Shown here: in pieces, positions 16,691 through 18,188 of the stretch
How positions within the stretch are numbered: the stretch's first letter is position 1
Layout of the letters: every line of letters starts with the position of its first letter
Assembly: GCF_000820845.2 (NCBI RefSeq)
Contig: NZ_CBXV010000008.1
Coordinates: 790,705-854,704 of the forward strand
Direction of reading: 5' to 3'
DNA length: 64,000 bases
DNA from: Pyrinomonas methylaliphatogenes
Lineage (GTDB): Bacteria; Acidobacteriota; Blastocatellia; Pyrinomonadales; Pyrinomonadaceae
The notes under the pieces: model-generated
What the model was told of the DNA's origin: nothing
Database searches by the model: none
Seen by the model: the letters and a program-made list of their open reading frames with translations, nothing else
Program-made: the position numbers and the translations under genes

Positions 16691-17113
16691 ATGGCAGAGC
16701 AGATTCAACTCGAAGTGATCACGCCCGAAAGGCGCGTCGTCTCGGAGCGAGTTGACGCGGTCACTGTTCCCGCGCTCGGCGGCGAGATCGGCGTCCTGCC
16801 GGGCCATGCGCCGCTCATCTCGCAGATCCAGACGGGGATCCTCTCCTACACGCAAGGCGGCGCGACGCATCGGTTGCACGTCTCCGGCGGCTTCGTCGAA
16901 GTGAGCGACGATCAGGTGACCGTGCTCGCCGATGTCGCAGAGCTTCCCGAAGAGATAGACGCCGCGCGAGCTAGACGCGCGCGCGAACAGGCCGAAAAGA
17001 TCCTGAGTTCATTCAGCGGCGATCAAGAAGAGTTCGCCCGCGCGATGGCCAAGCTGGAGCGCTCGCTCGTGCGCATTCAACTGGCCGAAGAGTTCGAAGC
17101 GATTCGTCGCTAA
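16691..17113 (+). CDS. atpC: F1 ATP synthase subunit epsilon
   Basis: Central-stalk regulatory subunit, 140 residues. The N-terminal beta-sandwich carries the family signature ALGGEIGVLPGHAPLIS, and the C-terminal helical hairpin spans about 90-138 (ARARRAREQAEKIL onward). It inhibits ATP hydrolysis and couples rotation in F1. It begins 22 bp after atpD. The frame is open far upstream inside atpD, but ATG 16691 gives the exact family N-terminus (MAEQIQLEVITPERRVV). Confidence 0.96.
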   Translation: MAEQIQLEVITPERRVVSERVDAVTVPALGGEIGVLPGHAPLISQIQTGILSYTQGGATHRLHVSGGFVEVSDDQVTVLADVAELPEEIDAARARRAREQAEKILSSFSGDQEEFARAMAKLERSLVRIQLAEEFEAIRR

Positions 17114-17230
17114 CCGCGCGCTCGATTCAACGACAAGAAATTCGCTCTCACCGCCCCCTCTCGTTTGACCTCGACAGGCCACCCATGCGCGCGTTGGACC
17201 AAGGAGACGATCCGCTCGCTTGTTTCATGG

Positions 17231-17259
17231 TTGACACGAAGCGTCATGTGTGGCATGAT
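17231..17259 (+). promoter_or_regulatory. Sigma-70-like promoter in the atpC-pdxJ gap
   Basis: A perfect TTGACA (17231-17236), 17-bp spacer and CATGAT (17254-17259). It points away from atpC into a gap with no plus-strand gene and is followed by two hairpins ending in a T-run. It therefore probably drives the candidate small RNA. Confidence 0.55.
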
Positions 17260-17265
17260 AGCGCT

Positions 17266-17374
17266 GATTCAGCGTCAACTTTCGGCCCGCTTTCCGCGAG
17301 GCCGATCAGAGCGCCGAGCGTCGCGTGAACGAGAAGTGTTGGGAGCCGCTTCCGGTCTTGCGCTCGGCGCTTTT
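17266..17374 (+). ncRNA. Candidate small RNA with its own promoter and terminator
   Basis: About 110 nt predicted from a TTGACA/CATGAT promoter to an intrinsic terminator, lying between convergent atpC and pdxJ. Hairpin 1 is 17282-17305: TCGGCC-CGC, loop TTTCC, GCG-A-GGCCGA. Hairpin 2 pairs AGCGCCGAGCG (17310-17320) perfectly with CGCTCGGCGCT (17361-17371), extended by two pairs, around a 40-nt loop. Inside the loop a small stem pairs GGGAG with CTTCC. It ends in TTTT. I see no signature of SRP, 6S, tmRNA or RNase P RNA. Alternatively, hairpin 2 is simply a distant terminator for atpDC. Confidence 0.45.
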
Positions 17375-17426
17375 CTTGCGCGCAGCGCGCCGGAGTTTCT
17401 CGCCGCTCGCGGACGAGTCAACGCGC

Positions 17427-18188
17427 TTACGTTCGCTCCGCTCCCTCGCGAATGGCGGCGAGCATGTCGCGCACGGCGCGCTCCAAGCCGACGAGCACGG
17501 CGCGCGCGATGATGTTGTGTCCGATGTTAAATTCGGCTATTTCGCGGATGGCGGCGATTGCGCCGATGTTGCGGTAGGTCAGCCCGTGTCCGGCGGCGAC
17601 GCGCAACTTTCGACGGGCGGCGAAGGCGGCGGCTTTACGCAAACGATCCAGCTCGCGCGCGATGCGCTCTTCGTTCGTCGGATGCGCGCCCGCTGGGAGC
17701 ATCGTCGCTTCGGCGTAGGCGGCGGTGCAGAGTTCCACCTGATCTGCGCCCGCATCGCATGCCGCTTCGATCTGATCCTCTTCCGGATCGATGAAGACGC
17801 TGGCGATGATGCCGCGTTCGCGCAACGCGCTGACGCTTGCGCGCACCGCATCGAGATTGGCGCGCGCATCGAGTCCGCCTTCGGTCGTGATCTCGCCCGG
17901 GCGTTCTGCGACCAGCGTGACGGCGTCGGGGCGAGCATCACAGGCGATCTTGATCATCTCTTCGGTGGCAGCCATCTCGACGTTCAAGTAGGTCGTGACG
18001 GCTTGGCGCAGGATGTAAAGGTCTCGATCTTGGATATGGCGGCGATCGCCTCGTAGGTGGATTGTGATGCCGTCGGCTCCGGCCTGTTCGCAGATCATGG
18101 CCGCAGCGACGACGCTCGGTTCCGTCGTTCGCCGCGCCTGTCGAACGGTGGCGACATGGTCGATGTTGACATTAAGTCGAGCGATCAT
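17427..18188 (-). CDS. pdxJ: Pyridoxine 5'-phosphate synthase
   Basis: Cytosolic TIM-barrel enzyme of 253 residues. It condenses 1-deoxyxylulose 5-phosphate with 1-amino-acetone 3-phosphate to give pyridoxine phosphate in the DXP-dependent vitamin B6 route. Family landmarks are LNVNIDHVATVRQAR, GADGITIHLRGDRRHI, LNVEMA, VTLVAERPGEITTEGG, VSVFIDPE-like SVFIDPE and AGHGLTYRN, with the active-site histidine and glutamates preserved. The reading frame is open upstream to 18338, but ATG 18188 gives the standard N-terminus MIARLNVNIDHVA. Monocistronic and convergent with atpDC. Confidence 0.96.
   Translation of the reverse strand: MIARLNVNIDHVATVRQARRTTEPSVVAAAMICEQAGADGITIHLRGDRRHIQDRDLYILRQAVTTYLNVEMAATEEMIKIACDARPDAVTLVAERPGEITTEGGLDARANLDAVRASVSALRERGIIASVFIDPEEDQIEAACDAGADQVELCTAAYAEATMLPAGAHPTNEERIARELDRLRKAAAFAARRKLRVAAGHGLTYRNIGAIAAIREIAEFNIGHNIIARAVLVGLERAVRDMLAAIREGAERT

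Follow-up and report, generated by a model that had tools for sequence, protein, structure and literature searches.

A segment of about 110 nt in Pyrinomonas methylaliphatogenes, at positions 17266-17377 of the 64,000-nucleotide stretch of contig NZ_CBXV010000008.1 analyzed here (the window), probably encodes a trans-acting small RNA that originated as the 3' end of the mRNA of a ruvB paralogue (ruvB2), pairs with the leader of the ruvA mRNA and belongs to a DNA damage regulon. We give this reading, which is built on sequence comparison, a probability of about 0.8, and from the same comparisons we infer transcription of the RNA, its induction by damage, its direct pairing in the cell and the direction of its effect.

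The element is located between atpC (16691-17113, plus strand) and pdxJ (17427-18186, minus strand). The first-pass annotation had proposed a small RNA here, with a promoter of two boxes separated by 17 nt, two hairpins and a terminator, in a gap free of plus-strand genes; the boxes and their spacer, both hairpins, the perfect 11-bp arms of the second one, and the T-run that follows it (TTTTCTT) were all recovered at their positions (Table 1), and the gap (17113-17427) contains no convincing plus-strand gene. Two features go beyond that description, which names no target, origin or regulator: an inner hairpin with a conserved apical loop, and a palindrome over the -35 box. The match of the covariance model built for the element (contig C8, 807980-808083) corresponds to positions 17276-17379 of the window.

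Table 1. Features of the putative small RNA gene and its promoter (positions in the window)
Feature	Position	Strand	Remarks
Palindrome GTTTCATGGTTGACAC	17222-17237	none	GTTTCA-N4-TGAAAC with one mismatch; overlaps the -35 box; likely operator
-35 box TTGACA	17231-17236	+	Also kept in the other Pyrinomonas genome
-10 box CATGAT	17254-17259	+	CATAAT in the other Pyrinomonas genome
Putative small RNA gene, about 110 nt	17266-17377	+	The -10 box suggests the 5' end, the T-rich tract the 3' end
Hairpin 1, TTTCGG..CCGA type	17282-17305	+	Kept across the family
Outer terminator-like stem of hairpin 2	17308-17373	+	Folds with 14 pairs, of which 11 form a perfect core (17310-17320 / 17361-17371)
Inner hairpin GAAGTG-[TTGGGAGC]-CGCTTC	17333-17352	+	8-nt apical loop 17339-17346; inside the long loop of hairpin 2
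Pairing segment TTGGGAGCCGCTTC	17339-17352	+	Perfect 14-nt complement of GAAGCGGCTCCCAA in the own ruvA leader
T-rich tract 3' of the stem (terminator)	17371-17377	+	TTTTCTT

The signals within the window are just moderate, and it is the conservation seen on comparing genomes that lifts the element beyond chance. Promoter-like sites number one in 3 kb against 0.6 expected from shuffled sequences, which taken alone is chance level, and the fold has a z-score of -2.45, with one of 200 shuffles equally good. Hairpin 2 was not listed by the terminator scan because its loop exceeds the allowed 8 nt. The only other genome of the genus that was found carries the element at the same locus with both hairpins kept, an identical -35 box and a better -10 box. 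Its terminator stem differs yet stays complementary (AGCGCCGGAAGCG/CGCTTCCGGCGCT), and its loop, TGTTGGGAGCCGC, is identical to the own one. Promoter, structure and T-rich tract are all conserved.

A covariance model built from 16 sequences found one copy in each of 19 of the 118 Pyrinomonadaceae genomes, distributed over 12 of 29 genera. The refined model, run on 162 genomes of the class, recovered these 19 again, with no match outside Pyrinomonadaceae. Absences are soft, since the filters of the two scans were strict and only part of the candidates in each genome was scored. According to the first-pass annotation, a lack of conserved pairing in relatives would speak against a small RNA. Conserved pairing was found, and it covaries: across the 19 aligned copies 85.5% of cells are paired, both sides have changed in 21 of 30 pairs, and pair covariation is 0.461; shuffled alignments give 0.240 (none of 500 as high), and slid structures do not exceed 0.207. 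These values come after fitting to the structure; an earlier alignment of 16 sequences, left unfitted, gave 81.9% paired and a covariation of 0.424 against 0.243. Hairpin 1 is itself conserved and covarying. Conserved covarying pairing and the promoter kept in Pyrinomonas thus back the small RNA reading, in which an own transcript starting near 17266 is a prediction.

Searches with Rfam 15 detected only tRNAs in the window. On the element they gave chance-level families far below threshold, relaxed threshold included, and in 10 relatives there was nothing at the element, the miRNA families reported on palindromes elsewhere being judged chance. A 6S-like RNA, a riboswitch and a gene leader were dropped on the basis of the missing Rfam match, the lack of a downstream plus-strand gene and the two-hairpin shape. 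The loop contains GGA, a CsrA-binding motif, and a CsrA-binding decoy was therefore weighed; with a single such motif per RNA loop, the idea was dropped. A repeat or mobile element was ruled out by the single copy per genome. The loop 14-mer occurs in eight of 119 genomes: two of these are the Pyrinomonas elements and the other six show no hairpins in the sequence displayed, with similar counts for reversed controls. In a genome from another family of the class (L003, 1501-1524), a 24-nt stretch shows a 96% match to positions 17292-17315 of the window.

The predicted target emerged from an 11-mer search of the own genome (3,788,560 bases in 16 contigs), in which one of two complementary matches to the element is the 14-nt complement of the pairing segment, about 55 nt upstream of the ruvA start in the ruvA-ruvB1 locus (contig C2). 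Leaders of ruvA were collected from 30 chosen genomes: the 19 that bear the RNA and 11 of the 99 that lack it. A RuvA match was obtained in 29, and the RNA-bearing genome that gave no ruvA match (G046) was left out of the resulting 18. A complement of the loop lies 35-56 nt before the ruvA start in all 18 RNA-bearing genomes with a ruvA match, as GCTCCCGA in 16 of them and as GGCTCCCAA in both Pyrinomonas, and neither GCTCCCGA nor CTCCCAA was present in the 260 nt searched in any of the 11 RNA-less genomes. The co-occurrence of RNA and leader site gives a Fisher probability of 2.9e-8 with kinship ignored, and the 8-mer is expected by chance in about 0.3% of 100-nt stretches of the extracted loci. 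Among 4246 background stretches of the 64-kb window, no stretch equals the ruvA leader in pairing with a 13-nt loop probe, and five score equally well when the probe is 26 nt long.

The 8-nt loop reads AUCGGGAG in the relatives and UUGGGAGC in Pyrinomonas, and this change, UCGGGAGC to UUGGGAGC, is matched in the leader by GCUCCCGA to GGCUCCCAA. The RNA UUGGGAGCC thus faces the leader GGCUCCCAA in a single compensatory event, C to U in the loop and G to A in the leader, that keeps the pair. An ancestral-type GCTCCCGA also persists in the own ruvA leader, close to the 5' end and 85 nt upstream of the start, so some pairing could survive without the compensatory change, and duplex energies of swapped loop and leader pairs are only moderately worse. 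A tree of RuvA and RuvB1 places the RNA-less genomes G012/G051, G008 and G043 inside the RNA-bearing clade (moderate supports, 0.68-0.86), with the leader site absent from them too; from this nesting, joint loss of RNA and leader site appears to have happened as many as three times.

Across 14 distinct leaders, the invariant leader block CGCTCCCGAAAT occupies the loop of a small covarying hairpin (0.429 compared with 0.238 shuffled, 0/500), so the two loops would be able to kiss. This hairpin was not recognized in the Pyrinomonas ruvA leader. Two points tell against the proposed regulation: the predicted leader folds show no obvious switch, and the site, at 35-56 nt from the start codon, is outside the zone in which ribosomes are usually blocked. 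Genome-wide, CGCTCCCGAAAT has 47 sites in 17 genomes compared with 18 for reversed controls; 16 of the sites are ruvA leaders, and among 30 loci that were read, eight of non-coding appearance twice, many of the non-ruvA ones are inside long open reading frames.

The leader of uvrA is suggestive only as a second target, a suggestion drawn from matches in five of the 14 RNA-bearing genomes whose start was read. All five belong to one sub-clade (G066, G021, G019, G058 and G041) and carry CTCCCGAA or GCTCCCGA 43-50 nt before the start. No such match was found in the uvrA leaders of the 11 RNA-less genomes or in the own one. The count leaves out G056, whose start is at a contig end, and G007, whose start was not found; G040 gave a partial match only, and G004 and G046 gave none. 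Separately, the second complementary match in the own genome (contig C1, 57099) lies about 65 nt upstream of another start codon, where a coding stretch, read by eye, appears to end.

Gene order at the locus suggests where the RNA came from. In the relatives it is atpC, ruvB2, RNA and pdxJ, the same two-hairpin RNA with the motif GGATCGGGAGCC lying on the 3' side of ruvB2; two loci (L126 and L137) have an extra gene between ruvB2 and the RNA. A RuvB2 search of the 118 family genomes found many with two RuvB genes, while the own genome has one, at the ruvA locus; ruvB2 would therefore be gone in Pyrinomonas and its promoter joined to the 3' RNA. When the two are aligned by eye, the Pyrinomonas promoter resembles that of ruvB2 in relatives (GTTTCA..TTGAAAC..GGTATAAT) in both position and sequence, and its two boxes have been kept after the loss. 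In the relatives the RNA shares its 3'-end position with the terminator of a protein gene, ruvB2, and in Pyrinomonas, where ruvB2 is absent, it does not. Loss of ruvB2 is likelier than the reverse order, an insertion of ruvB2 into an RNA gene, because ruvB2 is widespread. The body of the RNA would then have arisen as the 3' end of the ruvB2 mRNA, formed by its terminator hairpins, and the old ruvB2 promoter would now transcribe it directly in Pyrinomonas.

The exact palindrome GTTTCA-N4-TGAAAC covers the -35 box of ruvB2 in the relatives. Eight relatives contain 17 exact sites, compared with three for reversed controls, and each of the 16 that were read precedes ruvB2 or recA or separates an XRE regulator from a Rad52-like operon. 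The own genome has copies with one mismatch before recA and between the XRE and Rad52-like genes, next to a gene for an IrrE-like peptidase (Peptidase_M78). Near-copies are not enriched overall in this genome (nine against seven reversed controls), so the case there rests on position and not on number. In the own RNA promoter, the one mismatch of the palindrome makes the -35 box a perfect TTGACA. The own XRE protein (Pfam HTH_3, 4.7e-17) is encoded next to the IrrE-like peptidase (Peptidase_M78, 6.2e-12), and we consider it likely, from the placing of these sites, that the RNA is damage-controlled. HExxH is the usual motif of IrrE-like M78 peptidases; in the own protein (contig C8, near 489716) it is apparently EEVCH when read by eye. 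The Rad52/22-family gene is divergent from the XRE gene, with the palindrome between the two. In four other Pyrinomonadaceae loci (L143, L145, L146 and L154) the palindrome also precedes a conserved gene near ruvB2, whose protein contains ISGAKPSYVGSVLQREGLIDNYFDLYTS or similar.

The same palindrome occurs, in exact form, just before the ruvA start in two RNA-less genomes (G023 and G054), and RNA-bearing genomes have no palindrome within 300 nt of ruvA (the best copies have at least three mismatches). This distribution is most simply read as a switch in the control of ruvA, from a direct operator to the RNA. With its XRE regulator, M78 peptidase and palindrome at the promoters of repair genes, the set resembles a DdrO/IrrE-like damage module in Acidobacteriota. 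In Deinococcus the IrrE/DdrO radiation-desiccation regulon includes recA, ddrA, ddrO and ruvB (PMC5552922). As far as that source describes it, the Deinococcus system shares with the present one an XRE repressor, an IrrE-like peptidase, and a palindrome at the promoters of recA, of a Rad52-type gene and of ruvB; it differs in that here the palindrome is GTTTCA-N4-TGAAAC, the RNA appears to relay control to ruvA and the link between repressor and site is putative.

The palindrome would place the RNA in a damage regulon together with recA, the XRE repressor, the IrrE-like peptidase and the Rad52-like protein, and since it is shared with that regulon, damage would raise the RNA: it would lift the XRE repressor and the RNA would accumulate. 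The 8-nt apical loop would then pair in trans with the ruvA-ruvB1 leader near the 5' end of the mRNA, in the relatives as a kissing contact with the loop of the leader hairpin. The pairing would alter RuvAB output, most likely upward through a protected or opened leader. We lean slightly toward activation, for two reasons: in relatives ruvA seems to be one of the induced genes, and the site lies 5' of the ribosome-binding zone. The fuller scheme, a relay in which a palindrome-driven RNA kisses the ruvA leader in place of an operator at ruvA and has outlived the ruvB paralogue as a free-standing damage-response small RNA, is to us an even bet.

The opposite sign is the best surviving alternative, and a tentative one: the RNA would lower RuvAB, by a blocked leader or an RNase III cut, and among the relatives could, for example, favor RuvB2 over RuvB1. 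Repression is the effect of most known base-pairing RNAs that bind leaders, and the relatives do have two RuvB proteins; however, the palindrome at the ruvA start in the two RNA-less relatives suggests that ruvA is in the induced set, and a long distance separates the site from the start codon downstream. A reversed purpose is unlikely. The ruvA leader would then be a sponge or sensor acting on the stability or processing of the RNA, and of the ruvB2 mRNA, balancing RuvB2 to RuvA; attachment of the RNA to ruvB2 in relatives would let pairing couple the levels of the two messages. Pyrinomonas, however, keeps the RNA, its promoter and a matched ruvA site without ruvB2, so conservation there must serve something other than an effect on ruvB2.

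Quite unlikely is that the hairpins are a terminator and nothing else, stopping transcripts of atp or of the former ruvB2, perhaps also those of pdxJ arriving from the opposite direction, with the promoter motif as a relic. A stem followed by a T-rich tract, the position of the RNA directly 3' of ruvB2 in relatives and a promoter match that by itself is at chance level would all suit a terminator, but termination has no need of an invariant loop, hairpin 1 is also conserved and covarying, the loop and the ruvA leader change and vanish jointly, and both promoter boxes survive the loss of ruvB2 in Pyrinomonas. That loop and leader are unrelated conserved elements, such as two protein-binding sites, complementary by chance is very unlikely: identical letters in most RNA-bearing lineages leave little independent variation and the leader block CGCTCCCGAAAT exceeds the eight complementary letters, but the matching change in Pyrinomonas, the joint absence in RNA-less branches and the 18/18 against 0/11 distribution argue otherwise.

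As to kind, the proposed damage-controlled RNA is one already known, a base-pairing small RNA, probably of 3'-UTR origin. Bacterial 3'-UTR-derived small RNAs come from the 3' end of an mRNA, end in its terminator hairpin and pair with the leader of another mRNA. The Pyrinomonadaceae RNA is like them in its position at an mRNA 3' end, its terminator hairpin end and its complement in another leader; unlike them, in Pyrinomonas it appears to have lost its parent gene and to be fused to the parent promoter, it has no Rfam match, and its contact looks loop-to-loop. Acido-1 and Acido-Lenti-1 (Rfam RF01686 and RF01687) are structured Acidobacteria RNAs that were also found by comparison (PMC2864571); as far as they are described in that source, the likeness lies in being structured RNAs of Acidobacteria, and the element matches neither in Rfam, relaxed threshold included. 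In the literature, surveyed at the level of search results only, we found no base-pairing small RNA of Acidobacteriota with a target, no small RNA acting on the ruvA mRNA and no DdrO in Acidobacteria. At that level of survey there was no trace of the family, which would be new, of the link from a ruvB paralogue to the ruvA leader, or of this RNA outliving its parent gene. If the reading is true, it adds to Acidobacteriota an RNA family whose predicted mRNA target is backed by co-occurrence and a matching change, and places an RNA step in the control of Holliday-junction repair by DNA damage. It would furthermore be a natural case of a 3'-end terminator turned into an independent small RNA gene, in which the coding gene was lost and the promoter and 3' RNA stayed.

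Finally, another conserved non-coding stretch was observed around position 1501 of three extracted loci, L233 (G007), L251 (G002) and L238 (G021). Its features are a hairpin (GCGGGAGC..GCTCCCGC), a second one that is GC-rich, and the tail TTGTTTGATAACTGAA; in L233 and L251 a gene identified by eye as dUTPase-like lies about 500 nt upstream. This stretch is possibly another structured RNA or an rRNA leader.
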